This document shows, piece after piece, positions 22,006 to 56,166 of a stretch of DNA of 64,000 nt (positions are counted from its first letter, which is position 1; each line of letters starts with the position of its first letter). The DNA is from Anagrus nilaparvatae (Eukaryota > Arthropoda > Insecta > Hymenoptera > Mymaridae), in assembly GCA_022575985.1 (NCBI GenBank), contig JAKSXM010000231.1, positions 4,590,501 through 4,654,500 on the forward strand, read 5' to 3'. The translations under genes were made by a program, and so were the position numbers. The notes beneath the pieces are model-generated. The model was not told the origin of the DNA. It made no database searches and was given only the letters and a program-made list of their open reading frames with translations.

Positions 22006-22029
22006 TTTGAACAAATTATTTACAAATTT

Positions 22030-23676: not shown

Positions 23677-23862
23677 TTGAGACTTTTAGGTTAGGTTTTT
23701 TTTTCGTGTGTATGCATGTTTTTTCTTAAATGTATTTTTTTTTATAATAGAAATAATAAGAAAGAAAAATTTTTTGCTTCCAATTAGGTACATCTGTTGT
23801 GCTTAATTACTTCCGGAAAAAATTTTTGTGATTGCTTTGATTAAAGAAAAATTTTCTTTCAG

Positions 23863-25318: not shown

Positions 25319-25375
25319 TTGTTATTTATAATATATATTAGATATAATAAAAAGAATTTTATTATTTTTTTGGTA

Positions 25376-25633: not shown

Positions 25634-25769
25634 GTGAGTTTAATTGATACACATATTTTGTTACAAGCATACTCACTATACTCTTACGAATTTCAAAAAA
25701 AGAAAAAAAAAATAAACATTTAAAAAATAAACACAAATTATATAATCAAAGTTTTCTCTCTTTATGTTT

Positions 25770-26190: not shown

Positions 26191-26458
26191 AAAATAAGGA
26201 GATTGGGCAATGAAACTTTAGCCTTCATTTTCAAAGTAACTAAGTTGGTATTAATTGGGGTGTACCCCGAATACCGATTACGTCTTATGCCAAACTTTAA
26301 GAACATAAGACTTCAAATATTAGCTCTAAGGGTGCCCTACAAAAATGATTTTCTGGTCATTAATAACCAAGAGGTCGGTCATTTTTCTTATCAGAAGCAG
26401 AAACTCAGGATTCGAGGGACTGCAATAGTAAAGATCTATACCTAAGGAGAGCACCAAT
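26191..26458 (+). pseudogene. Envelope-like protein 2 fragment
   Basis: The reading NETLAFIFKV, LRLMPNF, LALRVPYKNDF and GHFSYQKQ corresponds to residues of about 205-290 of envelope-like protein 2 in copy D. It is cut at both ends: ORF3 precedes it and envelope-like protein 1 follows within the same codon run (26455-26462), so the junction is a recombination breakpoint. The order ORF3, env2 piece, env1 differs from that of an intact element. Confidence 0.7.
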
Positions 26459-31676: not shown

Positions 31677-33547
31677 ATGCAAACAAAATGTATCGCAATT
31701 CTATGCCTGGCTTCGTGTTTAAAAATAATCATTGCACAATCCATAATAGCCTACGACTGCGGTCAACAATATACAAATATAACTACATTTTCTCTTATCG
31801 ACGTGGGAGAATGTCGCGTACCAGATAAACCAAATGTAAAAATAGAAAAAACAAAAATTGCATTGTTACAATTAAACGATTACTCAAAAGTAAAGGCATA
31901 TTTATGCAAAATCAAAGTTACTCGACAAATATCCTAAAGCATCCCTAAAGACATTGAAATGGGAAAAGTGTCTTACATTGAACTCACAACATGAATGCTA
32001 TGTGACCAAATGCATCGCACTAGGACCTTAGCCTTTAGAAACACCATAAATAATCCAGGGCTAAGAGCTAACGGAACCATCACTACACCTGTTCAATTAG
32101 CAGGGCATAAAGGCGAAAAAGGTTCAAAATGCAAAAACACTCCTTACATAGATCCGTATGGAGCTTGGAAGTAATTGTAGACGGGTACATAAAAGTAACA
32201 CTAGAAGATTATTACGCCACAGTAGACCTTAACAACGACCAAGTAATTTTAAACACAGGAACACGTTGTAGGTTATCAGATGAATCATGCACAGACCTTT
32301 ATGGGGGCGAAATGTACTGGGACGCCACACCAAGAGATAATTGCAGAGAAAAATATACAATATTATAAACCGGCATAGTTGATAAAATAACAGATTTTGA
32401 AAAACCAAACAGCCCAGTATTTGCTTTGGAAACATCGATTGTATTCGCATTTACGGTGCAAGGCAACACCAACATCTGTTCTAACCAGGTGTATCGAACG
32501 GAACATCCGAAAATTTCGATTTTTGAAGGAGAGAGACCAGAATTACTTGAAATAGCGGAAGACACCTCTCCAGAAAATTTAGATCTGTTGACATACATGA
32601 ACTCTAAGTTCATTTATGTAGAAAAGCATCTTAAGGTTCAGATGCAAAATTGCCTGATTTATTTAGTATGCAGATTTTAAATCGTGCAGGTCACATGGGT
32701 TTAATCTCAGGCGAAACTATAAATCTAATGAAATGTGTAGGAGTTCCGGTGACCTACCGTAAGGTAGACACCTGTTATCAAGAAATGCCAGTATACAAAG
32801 ATGGAAAACCTTATTTCATGACTCCTAGGTCACACATCTTGTTAACTACGGGTACAAGAACCACCTGCAACGCATTAGTTCCACCCATGTACTTTTTGGG
32901 TCAAAAATGGTTCAAGCTGTTGCCAGAAGCAGTAGAAGCCCCAGCACCGCAAATTCTATCACCAGAGACCAAAGGATCATGGAAATACATAGATCCAAAG
33001 AATTTAGCCGAAACCGGGATATACACCCCATCCCAATTAAAAAAATTAAAGGACTACGTAATGTTCCCGTTAGAACGTGCACGATAGCCAGAGGCATGTT
33101 GGTAAGGAATGTCACAGGCGAAAGTTTTAATCCTTCGTATTTATTTAACGGTGAATCGTTAAAAAAGATAATAAAGTCAATATTGGAGCATTTCTGGGGG
33201 CGATTCGTAGCATTTGGGACGTTATCAAGTGGCATACTAGGAATATTTGTAATGTGTAGGCTTATAAAATTTTTTATTGATACAAGTTTACATGCAGTTG
33301 AACTTTATAGCGTGTATAAATTCTCAATCCATATAATAGGCGCGGTGTGGGACTCAGTCACACAGTTATTATTACATATAGGGGCAGAACTTGATAGGCA
33401 AACTAATACTAAGCCCACTGAAACGCCAGTAGCAACCCCCACGGCTCCTGAACCAGTTATAGAACCACAGGTGGAAATGATGGACGCCACAGGTACTCTA
33501 TATCCGTTACTTGGCAGACGACTGCTTGAAAATAATCATAATGTATA
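31677..33547 (+). pseudogene. Envelope-like protein 1, copy B
   Basis: It starts with the same hydrophobic leader as copy D (ATG 31677) and is recognisable to its C-terminus (TLYPLLGRR near 33515), with the membrane-proximal block FWGRFVAFGTLSSGILGIFV at about 33195-33255. Disabling changes: a short deletion with a stop at ~31935, shifts near 32170 and 32365, a ~100-nt deletion near 32650, and a shift near 33085. Adjacent env2 starts 133 bp downstream. Confidence 0.85.
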
Positions 33548-38182: not shown

Positions 38183-38650
38183 TACATTTGATTTTACTGT
38201 AGATGTGGTAGGACAAGAATTAAATAATCCTGAAGTATTAGATGACTTGCCTTTTGCAAGTGCTGACTTAAATACTTCAGAATTAAATAATTTTAGGGAC
38301 TTAGTAAAGGCTGATAATTTTGTCTATAATAGGGACAAAATTTTCATGAGAAAAGACAATTGGGCCTATTTCGTAACGTCTTCTGGTAAACCTGTATGCA
38401 CTGGAGCTTTAGAACTGGATGCTCTTAATAAAATTCCCATAAATTTATAACTAAATGTGTGTGAACCTAAAATTATTAAAATAGGTAGTAGATATCACAT
38501 TTTACTGCCTATTAGGGAAAATGACCCTATTTCTATGACAGAGGTAAGTGAAAATATCTCAAAATTATTTAATAATTTAAAAACTCTGTTAAAGGAATAT
38601 GGAATTAAGTCGTTCAGCATAGCCAAATCAAACAGGAGCAGAAAAATCAA
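38183..38650 (+). pseudogene. pol fragment: region between RNase H and integrase (copy C)
   Basis: Frames 38205-38450 and 38457-38663 read continuously apart from a TAA at 38448 and hold NWAYFVTSSGKPVCTG, KIGSRYHILLPIR and GIKSFSIAKSN. The last two match the start of the pol piece in copy D (GSKSHVILPIR, IKSFSMAKSK). In related Ty3/Gypsy elements this lies between RNase H and the integrase zinc-binding domain. The whole integrase is deleted: after SIAKSN the sequence joins env1 codons within ~30 nt. Confidence 0.65.
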
Positions 38651-40594
38651 TAATAGCCTTTGATTGTGCTCAGCAGTATAATAACATCTCTACTTTCTCC
38701 TTAATTGATGTACGGGAATGTCATGTCGCTATGAACCCAAAAGTTTTTGTCGAAAAGACAAAAATAGCATTACTACAACTTAACGATTATGCAAAAACAC
38801 ATGTAAAACTATGCAAAGTCGAAGTTACCAGAGATGTAAGTTACTGGGATGCAGCCTGGTACAAAAGAACAAGAATATCCGGTATACCAGAAGGAAAAAT
38901 CTCGTACATTGAACATGTAACCAGGTTACAATGTGACACTATGCATAATACGTTAAATTTTCATTTTAGAAACCAAATTTTAGTTTCTAATTTAATGCCT
39001 AATAATTCAAGATCAATGCCCGTTCAATTGGCAGGACATCGAAGCGACAGAGGCATGAGCTGTATGAATGGCTATTATTCTGATCCATACGGTACCTGGA
39101 GTGAGGTGGTAGTAGATGGATGGATTAAAGTTACCTTAGAGGACTACGAAGCTACTGTGGACATCGGTAACAACAATGTGATTTTGAATACAGGAATAAA
39201 ATGCAAACTAAATTCAGAACAATGTATTGATCTGTACGGTGGTTATGCATTCTGGAACGCTGCTCCAAGAGATCGCTGCGCAGATAAGTATTCAAAGTTG
39301 TATGCAGGTCCAGTTGACAAGATAATAGATCCAGAAGTACCGGAACGACCAATATATGCCTTGGAGTCTTTAATTATGTTTGCTTTTACTGCAAAAGGTA
39401 AATTTTCGGCCTGCTCGAATGAATTCACCAGGACAGATGACCCACGCATTTTTATAGCTGAAATGGAGAATTCTGAGTACTTGGAAGTGCAGGATTCGAT
39501 ATCACCTGAAAATTTAGACTTAATGGCTTACATGAACTCAAAATTTTTATATGTAGAAAAACACCATAAAATACAATTAAAAAATTTATATCATGATGTT
39601 ATGTTACAGAAGTGCAATTTAGAAAAGAAAGTAATAGCTAACGCCTTAAGTCTAGCAATACTAGACCCAGCTAGCTTTGCTTACCAGGTTGTTGGGGGTC
39701 CAGGTTTTGTCGGATTGGTCTCTGGTGAATCAGTAAACATCATAAAATGTATCAGCGTACCAGTAAAATACCGGAAGACAACATCCTGTTATCAGGAACT
39801 CCCGGTGTACAAAGATGACGAAGAATACTTCATGGCTCCAAGAACTCATATACTAACTGGTACATCTGTAGAATGTAATAATTTGGTACCCAGCATGTTC
39901 TTTTTAGGTGAAACATGGTTCAAATTTTCACCTGACATCTCTGAAGCAAAGAAGCCTCAGGTCTTACAGCCGGGTACACAAGCTACCTGGAAATATGTAG
40001 ACCCTAAAAATTTAGCCGAAGCTGGCATATACACCGCTGACCAGTTGAAGAGCCTTAAAGAATACATGAGATTTCCATTGGAAAAATCTGCTGTATTAAA
40101 CAGTGTAGCAAGAGGTATGATGGGGCAGAACATAACTGGAGACAAGTTGTATCCTGCATTCTTGCTAGATGCAGATTCCATCAGTAAGATCATCCAATCA
40201 ACATGGGAACAGTTCTGGGGAAAATTTATGGCATTTGGCACGGCTTCAGCAGGTATTCTAGGTTTAATAATGATAGCTAGACTAATCAAATTTTGTGCAG
40301 ATACCGCCATCCATACTATTACCTTATATAATATATGGAGTTTCGTTACATTTGTTGGGAGCTGTGTGGGATTCAGTTACCCAACTTCTAATTCATTTAG
40401 GACAAGAAGCAAATAACAGAAGGACACAGGTGCCATCGGGAGAACAAGAGCAAGTTAATGATACAGGACCAACGGCACCTGTAATGCAAGAGGAAACAAA
40501 TCAGGGAACACCGATATACCCCTTATTAGGGTTAACTATCGGTAACCAAGATTTGGTTCAAGAGCAAGAAAGAGAAAGAAGACATTTTAATTAA
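38651..40594 (+). pseudogene. Envelope-like protein 1, copy C
   Basis: Coding begins at the mature N-terminus (IIAFDC at ~38655) without a signal peptide, which was removed with the integrase. The frame is open over 38731-40416; the continuation 40295-40594 is in another phase, so a single frameshift lies near 40340, within the membrane region. Cys positions match copy D through most of its length, and it has LGAVWDSVTQLLIHLG and a YPLLG motif near the C-terminus. It is diverged from D but clearly homologous, and closest to copy A. Without a start codon and signal it is unlikely to be functional. Confidence 0.85.
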
Positions 40595-40795: not shown

Positions 40796-42214
40796 ATGCA
40801 GTACCTTTTGGGAATTATTATACTAACAGCTACAGTATATGCAGACATGAATAGACCAATGGTATTAACTATAGAAAACAACCCAGGAATAGTTTTCGAA
40901 CGAGTAGGCAAAATGAAAATTATAAATGATCCATTTATTATTTTTACTTTGGTTGATAATAAAATCATTAATGAGGTGTTTTTGAGGTACCTAAGCATGG
41001 TAAAAGGAAACGTTAGTGAACTAGTAGTAAATAGCCTCAAATACACTTCAGCATTGAAAGACATAACCATCGAAGAAAACGAAAGCTTTGGAAAATTAAT
41101 AAATGTAACTCACATGCAATTTACGGAAAACCCTAGAGCATTATATTTCGTAAATGAAGCCCAGAAGAGGTTTAGAAATGCCTATGCGGAGTTATCACTC
41201 AACAACGTTACATTAGAAGACACCATAAGGATAGGAAAGGAATTTGATTATTTAGCTACAGCAATGGTAGCTATATCTAGAAATGAAACACCGAAGGAAT
41301 TTTTTAATAAAATTGACTGAGTAGGAGTAAAAGGGCATTTAAAGAAACTTTTTAATGAAGAGCTACTACCGGTAGATCAGTGCAACTTTGTAGTAGATTT
41401 CAAGGTAGTAAGGCTAAACAACAGAACTCTAGCTTTTATGGTGAATGTGCCAACTATTCAAAAGGAGGAATATTCACTTTACAAGTTGCACAGATTACCA
41501 TCTTTTACCGATATAGGTTACAATGTTATTTTTTCTAAAGTTATTTATAATAATGATTACTTAGGTGTAGACAAGTCAGGGCACAGATCATTCTTCCTAT
41601 CAGAACAAGAGAAGGGGAACAGCATCGACTGCAGGTCAGAAAATATTTATCAAAAGGTAGCTCCTGTCATCAGCCTAGAGGCCGATTGCGAAACAGAATT
41701 GTTAGTAAGGGACTTAATGACCTGTCCAAGGAAGGAAGATTTCGCCATAGAGTCAGTTCTTGAAATAGTGGAAGGAGGAATGTTGTATTCAATGGTGGAA
41801 GAGACCAAGGTAAAAATTAAGTCCAATGGATATTCGCAAGTTAACAGATTGTCAGGATTTGGTGTTGTAAATCTACCATCTTCTTGCGAAATGACGGTGG
41901 GCTCACTCGTTTACAAGGGCAGTGGGAATAAAAAACCAAACTTGATTATCCCCAAAGGTAATTTGATTGTAAGTAATATAGCTAAGTTTTTAACTACGCA
42001 AAAGAGTCTGGTTTTTCCTACCGAAAAACCAGTAGTTAAAACGAACTGGAGAGCCGTTTTAGAGGTGCACAAGTTTGAAACTATATTAGTAATAACCTTT
42101 GGTCTAACTCTGATAAACATGTCTTTATTAATAATAAAAATAACGAAAGGAAATAAAGTATATAATCCTATTGAACAGTGTCCCATGGAGGCCGGCATAG
42201 ATTCACCAAATTAA
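40796..42214 (+). pseudogene. Envelope-like protein 2, copy C (one stop codon)
   Basis: ATG 40796 opens a hydrophobic leader (MQYLLGIIILTATVYA), NRPMVLTIENNPGIVF and a helical ectodomain. A TGA at 41318-41320 replaces a Trp seen in copy A. Reading continues in the same phase to 42214 with the Cys-rich part, VVNLPSSCEM, a membrane segment around TILVITFGLTLINMSLLII and a short tail. The single stop is the only visible lesion. It is preceded by TTTTAAG, a possible 3' splice site. Confidence 0.85.
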
Positions 42215-43669: not shown

Positions 43670-44246
43670 TGTAACAGCTGGCAAAGCAAAAAGCCAGCTT
43701 TACCATAAGTCATCGACCACGAGAGATCGACGCAAGCGTCGATTAAACAGAAATTCACAGATATTAATTCGCTAATACAATATGTAAAAACGAAAGTAAG
43801 CTGGGACTTATGTAAGGCATCGGACCACGTAATAACGAGGTCAACCACAAAAAGAGAAACTGGGTCCTGTTTGGAGATCCATGATGCCCCACTAAACCAG
43901 CTTAACATGAATCATACAAATACTGCCGGATTTGTCAGAACAGCATTCGATCTCCGGTCGAGCTTCCGAACAGTCGCAAATTATCTATCTTAAATCTCTA
44001 TTTTCGCTACTACTCTAATTATCTGTTTGACTTGTAACGATTTATTGTACTTTAACTTGTAAACCATTTAAACATTTATTTTATAATAAAGTCTAAGTTT
44101 TAATCAAAGGTATAAGATTTATTTAGTAAATATAGTCCTAAACATTTGTCCTCTTATTACAGTTTTGCCTTATTCCTTACGGGAATTTGTCGCTAGTTGT
44201 TGAATCCGACTTAATTAAATAGCAAATCAGTAGAATCTATTACAAC
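43670..44246 (+). repeat. 3' LTR of copy C, left part
   Basis: It begins TGTAACAGCTGGCAAAGC directly after the polypurine tract and holds CCTGTTTGGAGATCC, CATTCGATCTCCGGTCGAGC and TTATAATAAAGTCT (polyadenylation signal). It is interrupted at 44246 by copy D; the missing right end is at 56167-56215. Total length would be ~626 bp. It differs from the copy D LTR by many substitutions and small indels, so copy C is older. Confidence 0.9.
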
Positions 44247-44569
44247 TGTAACAGCTGGCAAAGCATAAAGCCAGCTTTACCATAAATCACCGACCCAGAG
44301 TCATCTTGCGTCGATCAAGAAGAAAAACACAGATATTAAAATCGCCGTTAATACTTAAAAACGAAAGTAAGCTGGAGCATCAGGCCACGTAATAATGAGG
44401 TCAACCACAAAAAGTGAAACGGGTCCTGTTTGGAGATCCTTGATGCCCCACTAGCAACCAGCTCATCAGGAATCATATAAATACTGCCAAAATTGTATTA
44501 ACAGCATTCGATCTCCGGTCGAGCTAACGAACAGTCGCAAATAGCTATCCTAAACTCTATTTAAGCTAC
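44247..44569 (+). repeat. 5' LTR of copy D, truncated to U3
   Basis: Nearly identical to 55560-55882 of the 3' LTR up to CTATTTAAGCTAC. After that the 3' LTR continues TTGTCTATTT, while here the text jumps to pol codons. TATTTAAG (44558-44565) is the likely TATA box, so the break is close to the expected transcription start. The R and U5 parts, primer binding site and gag are lost. Confidence 0.9.
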
Positions 44570-45896
44570 AATTGGCTCGAAATCACACGTTATACTTCCC
44601 ATACGGGGTGATACGACCATAAGCATATCCCAAGCAACTGACAATTTAAAAACATTATTCGAAAAATTATGTAAACTTACAATAGATAAAAACATAAAAT
44701 CGTTTAGCATGGCCAAATCAAAGGTCATATGTAATATAGATTGGATAGATGTCTTAAGACTATTGAAAAATAGTTTTAAAGACAATAATGAAACAAAGAT
44801 AATAATATGCTTAGGCGAAATCACGATACCCAAAGAAAGTGAAAGGGAAAGTATAATAAGGTACTACCACGAGTCACTTATAGGAGGTCACAAGGGACGC
44901 ACCAAGGTATTACGCAGAATCAAAACGAAATATTTTTGGGAAGGCATGCAGGAGCAGATCCAAGATTTCATAAACCAATGCTTGGATTGTCAACTAAAAA
45001 AGTTGGTCAGAGTAAAAACAAAACAGCCAATGATTTTAACGGATACTCCTAAGCAGGCAGGTTACAAAATTTGCCTGGACATTGTAGGTCCATTAAAAGA
45101 GACTAAAAACGGCAACACCTGCATCCTAACAATAATGGACAACTTGACCAAGTTTAGCGTCGCCGTACCCTTACCAAATTCAACAGCTAGCACCGTCGCT
45201 GACGCTCTAATTAAGAGATACATCTGTTATTTCGGATCTCCGGCCGTGGTTTTGAGTGACAAGGGATCTAATTTTATGTCTAAGTTGTTTGCACAGGTAG
45301 CAAAAGTATTTAAAATAAAGCAAGTACAAACATGTAGCTACCACCACCAAAGCTGCACCGTGGAACGTTTTCATCATACCTTGACTGAACACCTTAAAAT
45401 GTTCATCAATAAACAGAGAGATAATTGGGACGAGTTCATCGATCTCGCAACATTCTCTTACAACACCCAATATCACGAGGCAACTAAAGCAACTCCGTTC
45501 GAGCTGACTTTCGCTAGGGTTGCCAGAATTCCATCAAATGTCAATGACCCTGAGCAAGAATCAACCATCGACGATTACTTGAAAGATCTCCTTCTTAAAC
45601 TACATGAAATTCAAAGAATAGCAAGAGAAAACATCATAAAAGCTAAGGAAAGAAACAAACAATATTACGACCAAAGACTGGTTTGCGTTGATTTTAAAGT
45701 AGGAGACAATATTTGTTTGACGGAGGGAGGTAAAATACATAAGTTCAGCGACCAAAGCAGAGGACCTTTCGCCGTAGCGGAAACTTACCCAGATGGGAAT
45801 CTAAAAATCAAGACAGGGCCAGATCATTACGATATAATCCATTCCAATAGAGCTCGAAAATCAAACATATTGGCCAAATTTCCTTTAGATGATTAA
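44570..45896 (+). CDS. Integrase, Ty3/Gypsy type (copy D)
   Basis: The coding text enters at 44570 in phase (IGSKSHVILPIR) and has its first ATG at 44709, giving 395 aa. It inserts retroelement cDNA into chromosomes. An HHCC zinc-binding domain is visible (His54, His61, Cys91, Cys94 counted from that ATG), then the catalytic core with Asp124 in LDIVGP, Asp184 in LSDKGSNF and Glu219 in TVERFHH, the DD(34)E spacing. The C-terminal domain has VGDNICLTEGGKIHKF. The usual Asn-Gly before the Glu is replaced by Cys-Thr. The core resembles integrases of insect Ty3/Gypsy elements of the mdg3/Blastopia kind (from memory). No stop is present. Confidence 0.9.
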
Positions 45897-45998
45897 ATAA
45901 TCTAATAAATAAAAATAAAGCAGGAATAAAATTTTTTAAAATAATTTTATTAAAAACAGTACACAACTTTTTTACACACATACAATTATCATTTTTAT

Positions 45999-46410
45999 TT
46001 AAAATAAAGTATGATCCTCGAAACGATCAAGACCCCTTAACCAGCGTAATTCCCGTTTACATAGCTAGAAAAAAACAATAAAAACTTTAAAACTTTCAAG
46101 TTTTTTTTTTATATAAAATAAATTAGATATAATTACTTACGATCGGCCACCACCACTCATCATCGTCCTGATATCCATGTAATTGCCGTAACACCCATGC
46201 AAAGGGTGTATCCCCGTCATAAAACGCCCTTATCAGTGCAAAGTTCCACTATAAATAATAATACATTGTTTTTTAGTCAAAAAGAGAAAAAAATAAACAA
46301 GCAACAATATTCGTCTCTTTAGAACTTACCAAACGATTCATAGTAGTTTTATCCACGATTCTTGTAATATTTCGTCCAGAATGGTTATTCATATAAACTT
46401 CGCGATTCAT
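45999..46410 (-). CDS. Tiny 3-exon DEWW-family gene, first paralog
   Basis: Minus strand: exon 1 46410-46330 (ATG, 27 codons), exon 2 46248-46141 (36 codons), exon 3 46064-45999 (21 codons and TAA). All splice sites are GT-AG and all introns are phase 0, giving 84 aa. It reads NHSGRNITRI, WVLRQLHGYQDDDEWWWPI and ELRWLRGLDRFEDHTLF. Exon 2 has exactly the same length as in the paralog at 51119-51542, and both share the Asp-Glu-Trp-Trp end. It sits between integrase and env1, antisense to the element. Unknown function and no family recognised. Confidence 0.75.
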
Positions 46411-46610
46411 TTTTTTTTCTCTTTCACCTTTACGATAGTTAAAGACAGACTGTAGAGAATTTGAAATTTTTTTTTTCTTCAGCCACTTTCACCATACAAA
46501 AATGGAAGGGGCAAAAGACAGATTCTAGTTTTTACATTTCTTTAAAATCACGTTTTTTATTTTTTATTAAAAATATTTAATTAAAACTCTATTTTTTTTA
46601 GCTTATAATA
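46411..46610 (+). promoter_or_regulatory. env1 leader with splice-acceptor-like site
   Basis: The stretch ends in CTCTATTTTTTTTAG followed by CTTATAAT and the env1 ATG at 46611. The equivalent in copy B is also a pyrimidine tract with TTTTTTTAG just before the env1 ATG, so the site is conserved. It also carries the upstream region of the antisense small gene. A spliced subgenomic env mRNA is inferred. Confidence 0.5.
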
Positions 46611-48599
46611 ATGCAGTTAATATGTATCGCAATTCTATGCCTGGCTACGTATTTAAAAATAATCATTGCACAATCTATAATAGCCTACGATTGCGGACAA
46701 CAATATACAAACGTAACTACCTTTTCACTTATAGATGTGGGAGAATGTCGTATCCCAGATAAACCAAACGTAATAATAGAAAAAGCAAAGATAGCACTTG
46801 TACAATTAAATGATTATTCAAAAGTAAAAACATATTTATGCAAAATAGAAGTTACCAGACAAATATCTTATTGTGATGAGTCATGGTATCGATCAAGTAT
46901 TCCTAAAGATATCGAAATGGGAAAAGTATCGTATATTGAACCCACAACAAGAATGATATGTGACCAAATGCATCGCACTAGGACCTTAGCATTTAGGAAT
47001 TCAATAACTATCCCTGGGCTAAGAGCTAATGGATCTATTACTACACCAGTACAACTAGCAGGACACAAAGGCGAAAAGGGCACTAAATGCACGAATGCTC
47101 CTTACATAGACCCGTATGGAGCTTGGACCGAAGTAATAGTCGATGGTTATGTAAAAATAACTTTAGAGGATTATTATGCCACAGTAGATCTTAACAACGA
47201 TCAAGTAATCTTAAATACAGGAACTCGTTGCAAACTATCAGACGAATCTTGTACGGATCTTTACGGAGGAGAGGTCTACTGGGACGCTACACCAAGAGAT
47301 AACTGTAGAGAAAAATACTCAAAGTTATATACCGGCATAGTGGACAAAATTATAGACCCGCTAAAACCAGATAATCCCGTTTTTGCCTTAGAGACATCAA
47401 TAGTATTCGCTTTTACGGTTCAAGGCACAACCACTATATGCTCTAATCAGCTATATAGGACATCACATCCGAGGATTACCATCTACGAAGGAGAAAGACC
47501 AGAATTATTGGAAATTCCTGAAGATACTTCTCCAGAAAATATTGACCTTTTAACCTATATGAATTCTAAATTCATTTACGTTGAAAAACACCTGAAGGTA
47601 CAAATGCAAAACATATATCACGATTTGCTTTTACAAAAATGCAACCTCGAGAAGAAGGTAATTAGAAATGCACTAAATATAGCGCAATTGCAACCAGACT
47701 TATTCAGCATGCAAGTTCTTAACCGTGGAGGCCACATGGGTTTAATCAGTGGAGAAACCATAAACCTCATAAAATGTGTAGGTGTACCAGTAACCTACCG
47801 AAAGGTAGACACCTGCTACCAAGAAATGCCTGTCTACAAGGACGGTAAGCCATATTTTATGACACCTCGGTCACACATCTTACTAACTACCGGAACAAGA
47901 ACCACTTGCAATGCACTGGTACCACCAATGTACTACTTAGGTCGAAAATGGTTCAAACTCATGCCTGAAGCCGTAGAAGCCCCTGCACCACAGATCTTAT
48001 CCCCAGAAACCAAAGGTTCATGGAAATATGTCGATCCAAAAAATCTAGCTGAGGCCGGAATATATACCCCATCACAATTGAAAAAGCTAAAGGACTATGT
48101 AATGTTCCCATTAGAAAGAGCAGCAGTTTTAAATACGATAGCCAGAGGCATGTTAGGAAGGAACGTAACAGGTGAAAATTACAACCCATCATATTTATTT
48201 AACTCAGAATCCTTACAAAAAATAATAAAATCAACATGGGAGCATTTTTGGGGCCGTTTCGTAGCTTTCGGCACACTATCTAGTGGTATATTAGGCATAT
48301 TCGTAATATGCAGGCTAGTAAAATTCTTTATAGATACTAGTTTACATGCTGTAGCACTTTATACCGTTTATGGATTCTCGATTCATATAATCGGCGCGGT
48401 TTGGGATTCATTAACGCAATTATTATTACACATAGGAACGGAGCTAAATCGTCAAACAGAGAATCCACCCACTGAAAATCCAGTCACAATCCCCACCGCT
48501 CCGGAACCAGTAGTGGAACCACACATAGAAATAGACGCCACACATACGCTATATCCACTACTGGGCAGAAGACAACCCGAAAATGTCAATAATGAATAA
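46611..48599 (+). CDS. Envelope-like glycoprotein 1 (env1, copy D, intact)
   Basis: 662 aa and no stop. A signal peptide covers residues ~1-21 (MQLICIAILCLATYLKIIIA), then a Cys-rich ectodomain with several N-glycosylation sites (the first is Asn in YTNVTTF), VQLAGHKGEKGTKC, DPYGAWTEVIVDGYVKITL and a long coiled or helical part near residues 335-360. Hydrophobic segments lie at about residues 548-575 and 585-605, followed by a Pro/Thr-rich tail with YPLLGRR. The overall pattern reminds me of glycoproteins of chuvirus-like (Jingchuvirales) viruses captured by arthropod retroelements; this is from memory and unverified. It follows integrase, the standard env position. Confidence 0.75.
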   Translation: MQLICIAILCLATYLKIIIAQSIIAYDCGQQYTNVTTFSLIDVGECRIPDKPNVIIEKAKIALVQLNDYSKVKTYLCKIEVTRQISYCDESWYRSSIPKDIEMGKVSYIEPTTRMICDQMHRTRTLAFRNSITIPGLRANGSITTPVQLAGHKGEKGTKCTNAPYIDPYGAWTEVIVDGYVKITLEDYYATVDLNNDQVILNTGTRCKLSDESCTDLYGGEVYWDATPRDNCREKYSKLYTGIVDKIIDPLKPDNPVFALETSIVFAFTVQGTTTICSNQLYRTSHPRITIYEGERPELLEIPEDTSPENIDLLTYMNSKFIYVEKHLKVQMQNIYHDLLLQKCNLEKKVIRNALNIAQLQPDLFSMQVLNRGGHMGLISGETINLIKCVGVPVTYRKVDTCYQEMPVYKDGKPYFMTPRSHILLTTGTRTTCNALVPPMYYLGRKWFKLMPEAVEAPAPQILSPETKGSWKYVDPKNLAEAGIYTPSQLKKLKDYVMFPLERAAVLNTIARGMLGRNVTGENYNPSYLFNSESLQKIIKSTWEHFWGRFVAFGTLSSGILGIFVICRLVKFFIDTSLHAVALYTVYGFSIHIIGAVWDSLTQLLLHIGTELNRQTENPPTENPVTIPTAPEPVVEPHIEIDATHTLYPLLGRRQPENVNNE

Positions 48600-48726
48600 T
48601 TCATTAACAAAAAAAAAAAAAATCTTCTTTTTACTTTACTATAAATATCTCTTTCTGTCTCTATTCTTTATAAATATATAATATTATTGTTCCTAATAAA
48701 AAAAATGTATATAATTAAAATTCAAG

Positions 48727-50133
48727 ATGATCCTCACAATTTGGATTACGTTATGCTTAGGACAAGAACTAGCATCAAACCGACCCAAAATCTTCGATTT
48801 ACAAAATAACGCCGGAATATTTTACGAAGAGGAAGCTAAAATCAAGATTCTTAACCAACCTATACAAATATTCACACTATTTGATTTAAACATACAAAAT
48901 GATCTAGTCCAGTTACATATAAAAAAATCAACCAATGCCTCAAGACTCATTTATGTCGGCAACAAATTCCGCTCTCTTATGCGAGACGTAGAAATTCAAG
49001 AAAACAGTAAATTTGAAGCATTGAGCAACGAAACAGAAATGCAATTTACAAACGACCCAAGAGCAATATATTTCTTAAATAAATACGAATTACAGCTCAA
49101 AAATATCTGGGCTGAAACATACTCATATACCAATGTCAGCGAATCAGATACAGAAGCATTAACTGAAATTTTAAAAAAAATCACAGAAATAATGGAAATC
49201 ACAAGAAAATTCGAACAGCCTCTAGAATTTTTCAAAACCATAGATTTTATAGGAATACGCAATAGACTTGACCGATTTTTTAAGGAAGAAATATTGCCCA
49301 TAGAAAAATGCAAATTTAGGATAGACATGGAAATAAAGAAACTAAGCAATAAAACCCTAGCTTTCATCCTCAAAGTTCCAACAGTACAGAATGAAGAATT
49401 CACCGCATATAGACTACACCGTATGCCAAACTTTCTAGAAATAGGACAACAAACATTAGCTATACGAGTAGCCTACAAAAACGATTTTCTAGCCATCACT
49501 CAAGAAGGGGGCCGGTCATTTTTTTTATCCGAATCCGAAATGCAGCACTCGATAGACTGCAATAGCGAAGATTTATATTTAAAAAGAGCACCTATAATTA
49601 GCACAAAGATAAGCTGTGAAGAAGAATTATTAAAATTAAATACATTAAGGTGCCCCACCGAAACACAAATTGCTACCGGACCGGTTATTGAAAGAACTAG
49701 GTCAAGGATCGTCTATTCATTTATAGACGAGGAAAAAACAAAAATCAAGTGCGTTAATTTCAATCAAATCAAATATTTGAAAGGTTACGGAATAGTGAAA
49801 CTCCCCTCCTCTTGTGAAATCATTATTGGATCCGAAATTTATAAGGGGACAGACAACACTATGCCACGCTTAGTCACGCCCCATGGCAATCTAGAATTTG
49901 GAGATATATCAGAATTTTTAACAACCCCCGAAACTATCACGGAGCCAATCATAGAAGACGAAAAAGATCCTCAGAATGATAATCTGTGGCTCGGAGTGAT
50001 GCTAGTCATTGTCACATTAAATATCGTAGGCTGTCTAGCACGTTACTTATACTCAAAAAGAAGGTATAGAAGAATTAACGACCCAAATCTCATTAGCGAG
50101 AGTTACGTAAGTGCAGTAGAATTTAAAAATTAG
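48727..50133 (+). CDS. Envelope-like glycoprotein 2 (env2, copy D, intact)
   Basis: 468 aa, starting 128 bp after env1, with a leader (MILTIWITLCLG), then NRPKIFDLQNNAGIFYEEEA, a long helical N-terminal half, and a Cys-containing second half with LHRMPNF, SFFLSESEM and VKLPSSCEIIIG. One membrane anchor at about residues 420-440 (WLGVMLVIVTLNIVGCLARY) is followed by a basic and Tyr-containing tail. The architecture suggests the F-like Env of insect errantiviruses and baculoviruses, but no furin site or fusion peptide was spotted, so the family is uncertain. AAG|ATG at the start could be a 3' splice site. It is not related to env1. Confidence 0.7.
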   Translation: MILTIWITLCLGQELASNRPKIFDLQNNAGIFYEEEAKIKILNQPIQIFTLFDLNIQNDLVQLHIKKSTNASRLIYVGNKFRSLMRDVEIQENSKFEALSNETEMQFTNDPRAIYFLNKYELQLKNIWAETYSYTNVSESDTEALTEILKKITEIMEITRKFEQPLEFFKTIDFIGIRNRLDRFFKEEILPIEKCKFRIDMEIKKLSNKTLAFILKVPTVQNEEFTAYRLHRMPNFLEIGQQTLAIRVAYKNDFLAITQEGGRSFFLSESEMQHSIDCNSEDLYLKRAPIISTKISCEEELLKLNTLRCPTETQIATGPVIERTRSRIVYSFIDEEKTKIKCVNFNQIKYLKGYGIVKLPSSCEIIIGSEIYKGTDNTMPRLVTPHGNLEFGDISEFLTTPETITEPIIEDEKDPQNDNLWLGVMLVIVTLNIVGCLARYLYSKRRYRRINDPNLISESYVSAVEFKN

Positions 50134-50211
50134 GAACAATACCTCTTCTTACTATCACTCTTACCTTTTTACAATAATATCAAAAAAAAAACAAATTTAC
50201 CAGTCTTCGCT

Positions 50212-50275
50212 CTCTTTTCTTTTTATTCATAGGCAGACATACAGCTTGATCAAGAAATAAAAATAAACTTTTAAC
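50212..50275 (+). promoter_or_regulatory. ORF3 leader with conserved splice-acceptor-like site
   Basis: TTTTTATTCATAG|GCAGACATACAGCTTGA precedes the ORF3 ATG. Copies A (25780) and B (35672) have the same TAG|GCAGAYATACARCT element after a pyrimidine-rich run. Conservation of a non-coding leader in three copies argues for use as a 3' splice site. Confidence 0.55.
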
Positions 50276-50989
50276 ATGGCAAGCTCAATTCTCAACGTAG
50301 ATCTAGTCAAGAAGGCTATCCCATCACTTATTAGGGCAATTTCAGAACCAGAAGGTCACTGCCCTTTTAAGACCGAGAAGTTAATGAAAATCATAACCAG
50401 TAAGATCTCGAAAAGGCATATACTTGAGGGAATATGCGAAATAGTAAAAACACAAGAAATTAATACGCCTACCAACCCCACCATAATTTTCACTCAAATA
50501 CTAGCCTTAAGCAAACATCGTAGAAAGATTTTTAAAGCAATCACTGAAGCGGTAGAGGAAATCGACAATTAGTTAAAATTTGCCAACCCACCCCGCTGGT
50601 TATATGATATAAACTATGACACCTTAGAACTTCTGGACAGATATGCTGAGAATATAACTAAATCATTAACCAAAATTGATACTCACTACTATTGCATGAA
50701 AACATCTAAAGAAACAGTATTTATTGCTAAAGCCAAGCTGTCACATAATTCAGAAAGATTAAAGCTACTCTGCCAAGACTGTTATTCGAATTTAAACTGG
50801 AACATAGTAAGTTGGAATCTAGTAGGATGTTCACATGCATTAGTTTTTAGGAAAAGAGTAAGCAAATGCCTCAATTGTAAAAGGAAAGTGGTAAATTTTT
50901 TGGAAATATCACACTGTTCAAAATGCACGAAAAAGTTAAGAATAAACAAAAAAGAAGTCTTTAAGAGAGGATATGTAACCATACAATAA
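50276..50989 (+). pseudogene. ORF3, unknown small protein (copy D, one stop codon)
   Basis: ATG 50276 opens MASSILNVDLVKKAIPSLIR and runs to a TAG at 50570-50572. The same frame stays open from there to 50989, with HYYCMKTSKE and Cys-rich stretches (CLNCKRKVV, HCSKCTKKL) that look like a zinc ribbon. Copy C is intact across the same point, so the TAG is a single nonsense change or, less likely, a readthrough site. The full length would be about 237 codons. No family recognised. Confidence 0.7.
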
Positions 50990-51118
50990 GTAGTAGTTAA
51001 GTAAATAAGGATAAAATAATTTCGGTATACGGGTAATAAAATTAAGTATAATCAATCAAGTTTAAAATAAATAAGAAATATATTAGATTATTCGTACAAA
51101 TAAATAAAATTACATAGA

Positions 51119-51542
51119 TTAGTCAAAAAAGAGGTCAAAAACACCTTGTGAATCCGAAAGCTGACCTTCTTCATACAACCAGATGCGGTTATTAGTATCA
51201 AACTAAAACAATATATAAATAAAACATTTTTTTTGTGCTATTATAAGGAGTAAACACACACAGGAAACAACTTACCAAATTATACCACCATTCGTCTTGA
51301 TCTCCTCGATAAGGGATCCGTTGCAATACATGTTGTAAAGGAGTCTTTTTGGAAAACTTAGACAAAATACAACAATAGTCCCACTACAAAAATACAAAAA
51401 GAGAAAGATCTTTTAGCAAAAATCAACCATTTATTTTGAACAACAGTTTTAATCATACCAGATACTCCGCTTCAAAGGCATCTCCATCATTCAGCACGGT
51501 CACATAACGGCCTTTGTGGTTGCAAAGATCCATAACTCGCAT
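51119..51542 (-). CDS. Tiny 3-exon DEWW-family gene, second paralog
   Basis: Minus strand: exon 1 51542-51459 (ATG, 28 codons), exon 2 51383-51276 (36 codons), exon 3 51202-51119 (27 codons and TAA). GT-AG introns of 75 and 73 bp are all phase 0, giving 91 aa. It reads NHKGRYVTVLNDGDAFEAEYL, LQRIPYRGDQDEWWYNL and RIWLYEEGQLSDSQG. It is paralogous to 45999-46410 and near-identical in structure to the broken copy at 25376-25633. It lies upstream of the JmjC-like gene's 3' side, on the same strand. Function unknown. Confidence 0.8.
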
Positions 51543-51810
51543 ATTTTTAAATTATATCAGTTTAATTATCGAAGCTACTCACACAAGGTATAAATTGGTA
51601 CTAAAGGAATCAATCAGAAAGGACCAATATTAAAATCCAAAGTTCGAAGCAAAAAACTCATAAAATAAAGAATTTTTTTTTAATTCAAATTAAGATTTCG
51701 TAGAAGAATAAAAAATCATTAAATACAAAAAAAAAATATATATATATTCGAAAATAAAAAACTAGAAACGCAATAAAGTTATTTATTTTTGCCAGTACAA
51801 TTTAAGAACA

Positions 51811-52152
51811 GTGATCGTCAACATGAGTGCCTTGAACAAGCTAAGATTATATCAGAAATCTTTAAGAAAAAATTTACATAACAAATTTAGATTTTTGTTA
51901 ACATTAAAAAAAATTGAGAAACTGCCGTTAACAACATATGATCTCAGAAAATCGGATGTAAGAGATGAACTGGTAATAATAAGGAAAATGAATAGTGAAC
52001 TCAGCGGGCCCATATCAAGATTGCTATGGAAGTGGGCTTGGGAGTCCATACACGTGTACGGATTACACATTCCAGATGACGGGTATTCATCAGGAGATAT
52101 ATTAGGCTACAGTAGTGATAGTGATATCAGTACAGAGGACGAGGACGAGTAA
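51811..52152 (+). CDS. Small ORF with acidic tail, unknown
   Basis: 113-aa frame starting at 51811, or at the second ATG at 51823 (MSALNKLRLY). The N-terminal half is strongly basic (KSLRKNLHNKFRFLL, TLKKIEKL), the middle has SRLLWKWAWESIHVYGLHIP, and the tail is acidic and Ser-rich (YSSDSDISTEDEDE). It lies between the two antisense genes, on the plus strand. No second copy was found in the window, so coding status is less certain, but the compositional layering looks protein-like. Function unknown. Confidence 0.5.
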   Translation: MIVNMSALNKLRLYQKSLRKNLHNKFRFLLTLKKIEKLPLTTYDLRKSDVRDELVIIRKMNSELSGPISRLLWKWAWESIHVYGLHIPDDGYSSGDILGYSSDSDISTEDEDE

Positions 52153-52278
52153 AAAAGATTGATATACAAGAGTACTAAGAAAAAACATAAAAAAAAAAAA
52201 AAAAAAAGAAGTAACAAAACAAATTATTTTTTTTAAAAACAATAAAAATCTTTTATTCTAATAAATACAAAATAACAA

Positions 52279-53734
52279 TCATAAGACACCTAACATCAAC
52301 AATTTCTTCCGGTGACTCTTTGTCGCACGATGCCTAACCAATCCTCCAGCTACCACCCTAGTTCCACATTCACAAACGTGCTGATTTCTCAAAGTCTGGT
52401 CATGAGTAGCCATATGTTTTGTCAAATTAAATTTTCTAGAAAAACTATGGTCACAAAGCTCGCATCGATAAGCGTGAGCAGCCAACTTGTGTACATCAAG
52501 AGCTGCTGGACCAAGAAACTGTTTACCACAATATTTCTCTGGACAGGTCAGCTCATGAATCTCGTCAACCAGTACGAGAGATCGCCTCACCGCTAGTTCC
52601 CTCAAACCACCAAGGCTTACAGGACATTTACAAGACATATAAGGCGTTTTTACCGCAGTCAACAATCGCGGCAAAATGTTGGTAGACTCCGAAATATTCC
52701 CTTGCAAGTTAACGGAAAAATACGGAGTCCACGGACTAATATATATTAAATCTCCGGGCTGTTGCAAAAAGTCATAGTAGGCAATTCTATTCTTTTTCAA
52801 AAATAAAGAGTCAGGAAACAGCCCAGGACTATGCAGAGCCGCCATATCACATGAACAGATAGCACAAGGAGCTCCATCTCTACAAGAAGCCTGAGCACAT
52901 AGATTAGTCTTCATTCGCATCGAACCAATCAGTTGGCAATAGCGAGGCACGCTAGTGCTTAAGATGACCCTCCAAGCAGTAGGGCCACCATATCTACTTA
53001 GATTAATCAAAGGCATGGCTCCTCTGCTTATAAGCATGCCTGTGCTCGAGCCCCTCTCACCAACGTACCACATGGACGAATTATAACCTAAAAATATAAT
53101 TACAGTAAAATAAGGAATAATCATAACACAAAATTTTTTTTTTTATTTTTTTTTATTTTACCCGGAGCAGATGAAAGATGGCTATGCAAAACGTCAGTCA
53201 CATAATGCTCCGTCCGAAATCCAAAGGCACTTCCACCAAAAGGCAGCTCCAAATCTCGGGCCATCAACCAAGGTTCGCCACTTTTGGCCCTCTTATCTAG
53301 CGCATCAGTAGCCAACTCCGTCAGATACTCAGGACCAATAACACCAGAATACGGGACATAAGAATTTCTTGATACCACAGACTCCTTGAATACCGAAACA
53401 CTATCCGGAGATAAAAGCAGTCTTTCGAAACGGCCAATACGCCCAACACGTACCATCTCCCGGAAAATTGATTCTGCAGGAATCTGGTCCAAATATAGAC
53501 CTACATCTACACCTCCGTCAACCGGCAAAATACCTGGAAACTAAACCAATTGTGAAGAAAATAAATACAACAAAAGGAAAAGAAATAAAACTAAGAAAAT
53601 TTTTTTTTTACCAGCATTGCAGAATTCCACTGCAGTCCCACAGAATTACGCTTCAAAAATAAGCCAAGATCGTCCAAACTCAGCCTCTCCTTATCCACAC
53701 ATAAAGTAGAACGGCCAAATAAAACATTTTCTGC
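52279..53734 (-). CDS. JmjC-like zinc-finger protein, antisense gene (copy D, intact)
   Basis: Minus strand: exon 53734-53612 (41 codons), exon 53540-53162, exon 53087-52279 with the stop. Introns are 71 and 74 bp and GT-AG; AATAAA follows at ~52254. The last exon has NSSMWYVGERG, then GPTAWRVI, a Cys-rich insert (CRDGAPCAICSCDM), LFPDSLFLKKNRIAYYDFLQ, QPGDLIYISP and ISESTNILPRLL. This order (cupin start, LISP-like, QxPGD, N-x-SESTN) matches JmjC domains of the KDM4/5 type. The His-x-Asp/Glu pair and the distal His of the iron site are not seen, so it is probably catalytically dead. Two C2H2 fingers (~CPEKYCGKQF and CELCDHSFSRKFNLTKH) and a degenerate third follow. The starting exon is unresolved. 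Confidence 0.7.
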
Positions 53735-55548
53735 CTAAAAGAATAATTTTTTTGGGTATATCAAAGCAATCATCAAATTTTTTTTTCTCTCCGAAAATAA
53801 CCAAACCGGAAGTACGTATAAGGAAATAAGATTTTTTTTTTACAAAAAAAAAAAATAAAAACCCTTATTACCTTTGTAAAAAAAAAAAAAATTTTTTTTT
53901 TCGTGACGTCAGTTTCGCGGAGTACTCCGCGTAAATCAAAGATTTTTTTTAAGTAAAAGAGAGAAACAAAAATCACTACGTCATTTTAGCGAAGTACTCC
54001 GCCTAAATCAAATAATCTTTTAAGTAAGAGAGAGAAAAAAAAAAAAAAAAAAAAAAATTTTTTTTTACTTTTTCTTGTCATTACATCATCCATTCAGTTC
54101 AAAACAAAAAAAAGAAAATTTTTTTTTACATGGGTAAAAGAGAGAAACAAAAATCACTACGTCATTTTAGCGAAGTACTCCGCGTAAATTAAAATTTTTT
54201 TTTGTATCTAGCAAAATATATACACACTTTCTCTTACTTAATTGAATAAAAATTATACGTGTCATAACAAATTACGGGTCATTAACGTTAACATAGCAAT
54301 TAAGATAAATAACTACCTCAATAAATTTTTTTTTACTATGATTATTATTATTGAATTTTTTTTTCCCATATAAGAAATACACACACAAAAAAAAATATAA
54401 TAATAATATGTATATAAATAATAATGATAATAGTAACGATATATTAATAATAATAATTAATACCAGTAATAAATTTAATAATAATCATAATAATTAACCA
54501 AAAAGAAATGATACGGCAATAATATACATTGATATATATATACGTTTACATATATATTACACACATTTTTTTAACGAAAAACTCGACACTTCCGAACGCT
54601 CACGAAAGTTTACGAGAACACTCGGCTCGTATACAAGTTACAAATATGTAAAATAACGGGTCTTTCTCGCTTCTTTTTGTGTATACACTATAAGCTTACC
54701 TTGCATGATTGATATAAGTCAATAATAAATTAATTATTAGATAAATATGATCATGATTAATGACTTAACATTATTTTTTTTATTTTTTTTATATATAATA
54801 TTATACTTACTTCAGTACACATTTTTTCTTTTAAATATACAAATACCGGTAAAACACAAAATCTTTTTTGTTTGATTAATTGAGATGTACAATTAAGAAG
54901 GATTAGTAAGACACTGTCAAATACCTGTCGAAACATCTCAATCATTCAAAAAACCGGATTAATAAATTTCTAATGTTATTCAAAATTTTTTAAGGTGATG
55001 GTAACTTTATATTTTTTTTTAAACACACAAAAATTTGACAATTTTTATGCAAAAAATACTTTCAGTATTTTTTTTCAGTAGCGCAGAAGGGATAAGGGGA
55101 TGTAAAATAGACATATTTTACTAAAAAAATAAAATCAAATTAAATTAGCAATTTTACATCTCCTCCCACACTAATTAAATTTTTTTCAAATCTCAGCTAA
55201 GAAATTCAAGGCTAAAAACATTATTTAAAAAATTATAGTAATTAATTAAATACAATTATACTTTGCAAAAATACTAAAATTATATAGAAACATAAAAATA
55301 GAATCATTTATTATTATATCAAGTCAGCAATCTTGTACATTGTATAGAGCCATAAATCAGCATACTTTGTATTATATAGAGCCAAAATTTTTTGAGATTA
55401 CAAAAAACAAATCAAACGAGAGAAATTGTCAAAACTTAAAATAAATAAGCAATTAGTTCATAAAACAGGTCAAGCAATTAAATTAGCAAGTAATTAAGTC
55501 TAGAAAAAAGCCACCCTATAAAAAACTTTATGAAAAGTTTTTTTTTGT
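53735..55548. other. 3' internal non-coding region of copy D
   Basis: It holds three spaced regulatory-looking repeats (53901-54186) and AT-rich sequence with TAA microsatellites (about 54340-54480). A conserved block follows at 54480-55060 whose inverted copy is at 22030-22600, then a stretch leading to the polypurine tract. On the minus strand ATGCAAG|GTAAGC at about 54702-54714 could be an upstream exon end of the JmjC-like gene, but its phase does not fit the next exon, so it may be untranslated. Confidence 0.6.
53901..54186 (-). promoter_or_regulatory. Tandem CRE-like / AGTACT repeats upstream of the JmjC-like gene
   Basis: Three units: TGACGTCA (53904-53911) with GCGGAGTACTCCGC (53917-53930); TACGTCA (53977) with GCGAAGTACTCCGC (53989-54002); TACGTCA (54158) with GCGAAGTACTCCGC (54170-54183). 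AGAGAGAAA precedes the last two units. TGACGTCA is the full cAMP-response-element palindrome and the AGTACT core is a 14-bp palindrome in the first unit. The cluster sits just upstream of the antisense gene's visible exons. A promoter or enhancer role is inferred. Confidence 0.5.
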
Positions 55549-55559
55549 AAGAAGAGGGG
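55549..55559 (+). promoter_or_regulatory. Polypurine tract of copy D
   Basis: AAGAAGAGGGG abuts the LTR start TGTAAC. The equivalent in copy C is AAGGAGAGGAG at 43659-43669. Confidence 0.85.
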
Positions 55560-56162
55560 TGTAACAGCTGGCAAAGCATAAAGCCAGCTTTACCATAAAT
55601 CACCGACCAAGAGTCATCTTGCGTCGATCAAGAAGAAAAACACAGATATTAAAATCGCCGTTAATACTTAAAAACGAAAGTAAGCTGGAGCATCAGGCCA
55701 CGTAATAATGAGGTCAACCACAAAAAGTGAAACGGGTCCTGTTTGGAGATCCTTGATGCCCCACTAGCAACCAGCTCATCAGGAATCATATAAATACTGC
55801 CAAAATTGTATTAACAGCATTCGATCTCCGGTCGAGCTAACGAACAGTCGCAAATAGCTATCCTAAACTCTATTTAAGCTACTTGTCTATTTAATTGTTG
55901 ACTTGTAATAATTTATTGTAATTTACGTGTAAACCATTTAAGTAATTAGTTATAATAAACTCTCAGTTTTAAATAAAGGTATAAGTTTCATTTAGTACTT
56001 TCCGACCCTATTCATTTGTCCTTTAGTACAGTTTGCCTTATTCCTAACGGGAATAACTGCAATTAGTTGAATCCAACATAAAAATATAGTAAACATTAGA
56101 ATCCAGTATAAACATACAGTAAAATCAGTTTGTAATCGGTACTAAAATAATTAACCGTTACA
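55560..56162 (+). repeat. 3' LTR of copy D, complete (603 bp)
   Basis: Begins TGTAACAGCTGG and ends TTAACCGTTACA, with 6-bp inverted ends. A TATA-like TATTTAAG lies at ~55871, AATAAA at 55954-55959 and again at ~55972. The 323 bp shared with the 5' LTR differ at only a couple of positions by eye, which suggests a recent insertion. CAAC follows at 56163-56166. Confidence 0.9.
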
Positions 56163-56166
56163 CAAC

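Follow-up and report, generated by a model that had tools for sequence, protein, structure and literature searches.

A 64,000-nucleotide stretch of the genome of the mymarid wasp Anagrus nilaparvatae (contig JAKSXM010000231.1, positions 4,590,501 to 4,654,500; the window in what follows) contains a long terminal repeat (LTR) element, copy D, that is very probably a deleted insertion of a Ty3/gypsy (Metaviridae) lineage carrying conserved antisense genes with introns. Sequence comparison between copies establishes the layout of this lineage, its recurrence across diverged families, its recent transposition, the constraint on a JmjC/zinc-finger protein encoded on the minus strand, and the fixed antisense orientation of that gene. 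The fuller form of the element measures about 18–20 kb and reads LTR, gag, pol, TA (minus strand), chuvirus-type env, baculovirus-F-like ORF3, p98, p97, TB (minus strand), p113, JmjC/zinc-finger gene (minus strand), LTR. The features of copy D, numbered from the first nucleotide of the window, are the following:

44243-44246, target-site duplication CAAC, left, read from the flank
44247-56162, copy D, LTR element bounded by the CAAC target duplications
44247-44569, plus strand, 5′ LTR, truncated to the first 323 of 603 bp; 322/323 positions identical to the 3′ LTR (55560-55882)
44571-45896, plus strand, 3′ end of pol, codons 1033-1473; integrase with H2C2 zinc-binding region, rve, and GPF
46410-45999, minus strand, TA, small gene; predicted exons 46410-46330, 46248-46141, 46064-45999
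46611-48599, plus strand, env1, chuvirus-type fusion glycoprotein, 662 aa; Pfam Monjiviricetes_fusion 2.1e-191
48727-50133, plus strand, ORF3, 468 aa, second glycoprotein-like gene; by eye, a signal-like start and a hydrophobic stretch at the C-terminal end
50276-50572, plus strand, p98, 98 aa, between ORF3 and TB; in five of seven relatives
50696-50989, plus strand, p97, 97 aa, cysteine-rich (zinc-ribbon-like), between ORF3 and TB; in six of seven relatives
51542-51119, minus strand, TB, small gene, 91 aa, clean translation; predicted exons 51542-51459, 51383-51276, 51202-51119
51823-52152, plus strand, p113, 109 aa from ATG, acidic C-terminus; in seven of seven relatives, duplicated in five
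54822-52279, minus strand, JmjC/C2H2 gene, 440 aa; predicted exons 54822-54811, 53734-53612, 53540-53162, 53087-52279
55549-55559, plus strand, polypurine tract AAGAAGAGGGG, directly before the 3′ LTR
55560-56162, plus strand, 3′ LTR, 603 bp, TGTAAC...GTTACA, from sequence comparison
56163-56166, target-site duplication CAAC, right, read from the flank

The original prediction, made from the letters of the DNA, had described an element bounded by LTRs, a polypurine tract, and a CAAC duplication, with two env-like genes, a small sense gene, and three intron-containing minus-strand genes between integrase and 3′ LTR. All of the border features were found, but the 5′ LTR is truncated to 323 of 603 bp; TA, TB, and the JmjC gene stood as the three minus-strand genes, to which the sense open reading frames (ORFs) p98 and p97 have to be added. 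The shortened LTR is fused at position 44571 to codon 1033 of pol, a gene of at least 1473 codons in open relatives. Since the cut 5′ LTR is joined to late pol, copy D lacks a primer-binding site, gag, protease, and reverse transcriptase: it is an internally deleted, defective insertion. What remains of pol is 99% identical to pol of the relative L017, and its integrase matches the Pfam families Integrase_H2C2 (3.1e-19) and rve (1.1e-13). The C-terminus of the integrase carries a GPY/F motif, recognized by eye as RGPFAV in copy D and KGPYAV in the relative L022, which is a hallmark of the Metaviridae integrase C-terminus (PMC12440569).

Searches of the 488.7-Mb genome were scored for only part of the candidates, and all counts given here are lower bounds. 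The LTR search gave 43 matches (40 of 121 candidates scored), among which at least nine further LTR pairs lie on the same strand less than 25 kb apart, seven of 14–20 kb and two of about 7 kb; a 29-kb LTR pair on contig C373 (11462709/11491718), holding two pol matches and one JmjC match, was left out of this count. The 3′ ten kb were read in the seven elements of 14–20 kb, the 5′ halves in four. All seven contain env, p113, and, in antisense orientation, the three JmjC exons tested (exons 2–4), and the order and strands of the cassette genes are the same wherever these genes are present. In five of the seven, the locus ends within env, and in L015 env comprises only residues 1–162; ORF3 is found in six, being short in L013, split into two pieces in L010, and interrupted by one stop in L012. 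The predicted abundance of copies that agree in gene order and in their LTR borders is thus borne out, and the opposite outcome, a cassette confined to two copies from one duplication, is excluded because insertions with differing target duplications, and with ORF3 identity as low as 23%, have this layout in common. The scored lists contain no env, ORF3, or JmjC match for the two pairs of about 7 kb (contigs C62 and C234), and the C62 element, when read, held only gag and pol scraps. Target duplications (CAAC, ATAT, GTAT, TTAC, GTAG, AATT) measure 4 bp in six of six elements (E4 and E5 not included), which, with LTR ends of TG...CA, lies within the 4–6 bp given for Metaviridae. Identities within LTR pairs amount to 602/603, 603/603, 617/617, 623/623, and 618/623; since the pairs are identical over 603–623 bp in three elements, some insertions are very recent. 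Three fuller relatives combine an open gag, an open Ty3/gypsy pol, and 100% identical LTR pairs. Gag (about 700 aa) and pol (about 1470–1530 aa) are open in L016, L017, and L018, and Pfam places RVT_1, RNase H, and rve in this order in L017 and L018, with RVP exactly at the cut-off in L017. The 704-aa ORF preceding pol in L017 has no Pfam match and is named gag by its position and by zinc knuckles recognized by eye; L019 (element E7) has a gag frame of 478 aa, and its pol matches residues 1–893 with one stop. The best solved relative of the pol reverse transcriptase is Ty3 (1.8e-113), ahead of retroviral reverse transcriptases, a ranking by search score. The same 20 bases, TGGGGGCCCATCATCCGGAC, follow the 5′ LTR at the putative primer-binding site position in five of five elements read.

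On the minus strand, three introns are predicted in the JmjC gene and two each in TA and TB. The JmjC protein of copy D matches JmjC (3.1e-8) and zf-C2H2 (3.4e-7) in Pfam, and the JmjC domain scores 8.4e-15 in L020 and 6.5e-16 in L023. PDB searches with the protein and with the alignment returned zinc-finger chains and no JmjC chain among the matches listed; scans of viral_contigs and genome_contigs yielded no JmjC relatives. The exons proposed earlier for this gene at 52279-53734 were recovered, but the number of exons is very likely four instead of three, with the gene starting at 54822: its first exon consists of the four codons MCTE (54822-54811), giving a protein that reads MCTE|AENVLF.... 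The corresponding pattern—MCTE or MCTA followed by GTAAGT, framed after three of the copies had been seen—occurs in copy D and five of the seven relatives, with 0.064 expected per shuffled region. An alternative first exon, ATGCAAG/GTAAGC, was dropped because it has the wrong phase and is not kept in L012. Splice sites of the JmjC gene lie at the same places across copies (GT-AG, once GC-AG), the end of exon 3 in L013 being the exception. Chance antisense ORFs were ruled out by conservation, intron positions, and the ratio of nonsynonymous to synonymous substitution rates (dN/dS), chance being very unlikely because the JmjC exons are conserved in all seven relatives. TB is kept in six of the seven; its exon 2 is 32% identical to exon 2 of TA (E 3e-5), and TA and TB look like paralogues by sequence. 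All three TA exons are found in E2 (L010 and L016) and exons 1 and 2 partly in L013 and L020, the gene being seen complete in copy D and E2.

Genome-wide, the arrangement was followed through 140 JmjC matches (138 of 991 candidates scored), 93 ORF3 matches (91 of 135), 70 env matches (67 of 535), and 37 pol matches (32 of 3288), merged before counting when within 4 kb of each other (2 kb for env, 3 kb for pol). A JmjC locus lies within 12 kb of 48 of the 73 ORF3 loci and is antisense and downstream in 46 of the 48; both exceptions are located in the scrambled part of this window. These 46 ORF3 loci rest on 44 distinct antisense JmjC loci, with sharing at C95:4631347 (this window) and C62:33454627, and ORF3 identity across the JmjC-linked loci ranges from 23 to 100%. 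The 47 env loci of at least 48% identity are followed by ORF3 on the same strand in 43 cases and by JmjC on the opposite strand in 37, never by JmjC on the same strand. For the 20 env loci below 48%, the scored lists contain neither ORF3 nor JmjC within 12 kb. Two of them (L025 and L026) were read 4–5 kb downstream and contain sense ORFs without ORF3 or JmjC match, a reading that tests ORF3 well and JmjC partly, the JmjC gene of copy D lying 3.7–6.2 kb behind env. In this sister env clade the sense ORFs of about 240–280 aa, with cysteine-rich ends, occupy the place of ORF3, and the end of the L025 ORF weakly resembles p97. Among 32 pol loci, JmjC is downstream in 18 and antisense in all 18; in ten of the remaining 14, env and ORF3 matches are missing as well. 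Antisense JmjC also follows pol directly, without env or ORF3 matches, in L022 (C62:36845500-36853499) and at C47:2662867.

The sense genes appear to include two glycoproteins. Named relatives of env, at 36–43% identity, come from Osmia lignaria, Temnothorax longispinosus, and Venturia canescens (three named of 14 matches); none was found in scans of viral_contigs or the phage collection. For ORF3 of copy D itself, Pfam gave no match, nor did the PDB for the ORF3 alignment. Among eight other ORF3 members scanned, L047 (1.6e-9) and L048 (6e-10), which are 38–39% identical to ORF3 of copy D, exceed the curated cut-off of Baculo_F; the remaining six fall below it, as does an ORF3 piece at 41438-42211 (6.8e-4). 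The likeness of ORF3 in copy D to baculovirus F proteins is therefore suggested through homology within the ORF3 family, and since two ORF3 relatives match Baculo_F, the element carries two glycoprotein-like genes of apparently different viral origin. Structure predictions for the JmjC relative P0002 and for ORF3 were of low confidence, with predicted local distance difference test scores (pLDDT) of 31 and 33. Zinc-ribbon matches of p97 are below the curated Pfam cut-offs.

Several observations weigh against the interpretation of copy D as part of a functional lineage with antisense genes of its own. Copy D cannot be autonomous, and pol is damaged in relatives (two stops in E1, one in E7, gaps or stops in E4 and E5). 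The antisense genes are incompletely kept: in the L017, L018, and L015 elements TA is matched only over a portion of exon 1, at 42–45%, TB is missing in L015, and JmjC exon 1 could not be located in L013, in L015, or in the copy at 29021-30460. JmjC frames are damaged by a stop in exon 3 of L014 and by the disturbed end of exon 3 in L013, and close pairs are uninformative on selection (dN/dS 0.62 for D–L010, undefined for D–L009). Antisense transcription and splicing are predicted from sequence. In the scored lists, JmjC is missing within 12 kb of 25 of 73 ORF3 loci, downstream of 10 of the 47 env loci of at least 48% identity, and downstream of 14 of 32 pol loci, and 73 of 122 merged JmjC loci are near no scored env, ORF3, or pol match; either the JmjC family also resides outside elements or the scored lists are too short.

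Some of these points bear on rival explanations. If the antisense genes were functionless passengers, captured once and carried along, the damaged copies, the missing iron ligands of the D-type JmjC protein, and the 14 pol loci of the lineage without JmjC would be accommodated. This is unlikely, because dN/dS is well below 1 over deep divergence, the introns are conserved, and the genes are kept in families with only about 30% JmjC identity as well as at the two loci without env and ORF3 matches, C47:2662867 and L022. For the last JmjC exon, dN/dS is 0.15–0.24 in eight pairs with a proportion of synonymous differences (pS) >0.5 and 0.25–0.32 in closer pairs (L013, L014, L015); for the exon before it, values are 0.15–0.56 where defined in the same eight pairs, and for env 0.04–0.08 at pS >0.5. 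Undefined pairs are left out of these ranges and the env pair L014–L015, whose parts do not overlap, is unused; some pairs approach saturation at synonymous sites, and others are so similar that they contain too few changes to be informative. A different possibility is that the antisense transcripts matter and not the proteins, through RNA control of the sense genes. TB and JmjC are indeed interleaved with sense genes and, as the map implies, would be transcribed towards them, but protein-level constraint and conserved splice sites would then be unneeded and the constraint on JmjC amino acids exceeds that on nucleotides, which makes this explanation quite improbable.

The 73 JmjC loci without scored partners are also what favours a duplicated host gene block that LTR elements merely flank or are nested in, so that the antisense genes would not be the element's own; the same holds for the occurrence of the family as ORFs of 500–600 aa with intact catalytic residues. 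However, the cassette lies inside LTR borders with differing target duplications in independent insertions, order and orientation are fixed in 46 of 48 loci, and the eight D-type JmjC genes form one clade (support 100/99) in an unrooted tree of 32 sequences (L046, of 100 aa, left out; long branches flagged). This makes a host block highly unlikely and already refutes it for the D-type copies. In the same tree, 11 of the 15 JmjC genes without a scored env or ORF3 nearby lie across a supported branch from the other 21 rows, which comprise every element-linked gene and the other four unlinked genes. The several virus-type genes in a 12-kb block and the missing reverse transcriptase of copy D might point to a large DNA virus that has integrated, or to a Polinton-like element, with an integrase of retroviral type. 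This reading is barely conceivable and already refuted, as fuller relatives have LTRs, the common 20-base sequence at the primer-binding site position, a purine tract, gag, reverse transcriptase, and RNase H.

JmjC demethylases bind iron through the motif His-x-Asp/Glu ... His. By eye, HIE or HVE and a later His are present in the 11 unlinked genes and in L020, L021, L034, L039, L040, and L043, and unlinked loci with an intact HIE...H include L023 and L027–L033. In the D-type, the first motif place is occupied by LIS/LMS or RLE/CLE, again by eye, copy D lacks the second His, and parts of the motif are likewise missing in the group of L022, L037, L038, L041, L042, and L044. The element gene may have been derived from such a JmjC/zinc-finger gene with introns. 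L023, L027, L028, and L029, which are spread over three contigs, contain near-identical JmjC/zinc-finger ORFs (508 aa in L023), and since there are near-identical copies at four loci, this unlinked type may be mobile too. The L023 ORF adjoins tandem arrays of 64 bp and 150 bp. At C62:66759932-66765361, six JmjC fragments of 300 bp follow one another on the same strand.

A gene captured by a retroelement usually has no introns and lies on the sense strand. In the preferred interpretation, an element lineage with antisense genes of its own, genomic RNA starting in the 5′ LTR would carry the antisense genes as their reverse complement; their introns are not introns in this RNA and would therefore survive reverse transcription. 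This argument, already made in the original prediction, fits the splice sites, whose positions are shared between copies and lie on the strand that is not open to splicing in the genomic RNA. In the integrated provirus, the antisense genes would be transcribed from internal promoters of their own, located before the 3′ LTR, and their transcripts spliced. The JmjC/zinc-finger protein would have begun as a chromatin enzyme and might, with moderate confidence, regulate the provirus or host silencing, as suggested by likeness to HBZ and the Retand antisense proteins discussed below; the D-type, devoid of iron ligands, would act by binding and not by demethylation. Cassettes would be swapped between elements by template switching. 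Identity between copy D and L011 is 98–100% up to about 51.4 kb, 87–90% to 52.2 kb, 64–73% from there over JmjC and the stretch behind it, then 81–87%, and 97% in the last 400 bp; L012 and L014 are mosaics with switch points elsewhere. As the relatives are mosaics, we infer swapping of cassettes by template switching between co-packaged RNAs. Tentatively, all of this may be combined: the antisense strand could serve as a protected compartment for intron genes with their own promoters, retained because their introns cannot be removed when the sense RNA is reverse-transcribed, with a JmjC protein that counters or redirects silencing, two glycoproteins of different viral origin, and trading of cassettes, a joint proposal that is possible, if rather doubtful as a whole.

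HBZ of human T-cell leukaemia virus type 1 (HTLV-1) is a spliced, protein-coding minus-strand gene in the 3′ part of the provirus that encodes a bZIP factor. The element described here resembles HTLV-1 in possessing a minus-strand gene with predicted splicing in that part of the provirus, but it has three such genes, with three, two, and two introns, the largest of which encodes JmjC and C2H2 domains. A spliced antisense gene of HTLV-1 is the subject of PMC1459196 and PMC2386809. Whereas HTLV-I antisense transcripts start in the 3′ LTR (PMC1459196), the first coding exon of the JmjC gene lies 738 bp before it. Plant gypsy elements of the Retand/Grande type likewise have antisense ORFs between pol and 3′ LTR, a stable trait of the lineage, with a TRP28 domain and suspected DNA binding of the encoded proteins (PMC11963269), and antisense ORFs are reported from plant elements in PMC7264820 as well. 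Apart from their host and the TRP28 domain in place of the JmjC and C2H2 domains of the largest antisense protein, the Retand elements differ in that the word intron does not occur in the text of PMC11963269 and no env-like sense proteins were found in its excerpts. On the sense strand, a captured chuvirus glycoprotein is known from the BEL/Pao element Anakin of mosquitoes (PMC7642597), and a later survey found no clear capture of such a glycoprotein by Gypsy (PMC10084718). Anakin shares the chuvirus-type gene (Monjiviricetes_fusion, 2.1e-191 here) with copy D but has a BEL/Pao pol, and its excerpts contain no second glycoprotein or antisense genes. A pol of the Anakin type was rejected for the present element because the nearest solved relative is Ty3 and the integrase has GPF, with no BEL/Pao reference among the comparisons. 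Insect errantiviruses are gypsy-kind LTR elements with an F-type envelope as third ORF (PMC12992720), and are comparable to the present lineage in so far as its ORF3 is F-like; here, in contrast, pol is followed first by a chuvirus-type gene and then by the F-like ORF3, and antisense genes are added. The bdelloid rotifer elements Vesta, Juno, and TelKA share the occurrence of extra ORFs, some enzymatic, common to diverse LTR elements (PMC5408684), although their ORF3 is GDSL, DEDDy, or env-like, the excerpts mention no JmjC, and intron is absent from the text. Troyka has 3-bp duplications and CG...CG ends (PMC12440569), and identity with it is ruled out by TG...CA ends and 4-bp duplications. 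In titles and beginnings of abstracts of the open-licence literature, which excludes subscription journals and preprints, HTLV-1 was the one exception to the absence of animal LTR elements that have spliced antisense genes or a JmjC gene, in agreement, within this limited search, with the earlier statement that no named element has this gene set.

The retention of several antisense intron genes over deep divergence would show how retroelements can acquire and keep fully eukaryotic genes, and it lends itself to a natural test of the idea that retroelements code for chromatin regulators of their own. The lineage is also an example of two glycoprotein genes of viral type, unrelated to each other, in a single provirus.

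Further relatives occur within the window, where 21651-44245 is a graveyard of the same lineage comprising at least three older, nested, and scrambled relatives:

43670-44245, plus strand, older related LTR, 80% identical to the LTR of copy D
21651-25640, minus strand, inverted remnant with LTR piece, 3′ region, JmjC, and TB, from sequence comparison
29021-30460, plus strand, third JmjC copy, more diverged, with the same intron positions, from sequence comparison

Copy D seems to have inserted at the end of the older LTR. For the inverted remnant, a repetition of the arrangement of copy D had been claimed; the order of LTR piece, 3′ region, JmjC (pieces at 23863-25291, plus strand), and TB (25373-25633, plus strand) holds, with introns at the positions found in copy D, but the remnant is scrambled, contains integrase and gag pieces, and has broken JmjC frames. 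Graveyard pieces include env at 26457-27963, 31677-33542, and 38644-40531, ORF3 pieces, and two JmjC copies. Elsewhere in the window, tandem-like repeats spaced about 155 and 468 bp apart occupy 4199-7120, and inverted repeats of 187–256 bp that are 99–100% complementary (38-293/1288-1543, 9041-9227/9323-9509, 60645-60868/63480-63703) perhaps represent young terminal-inverted-repeat elements or hairpins.

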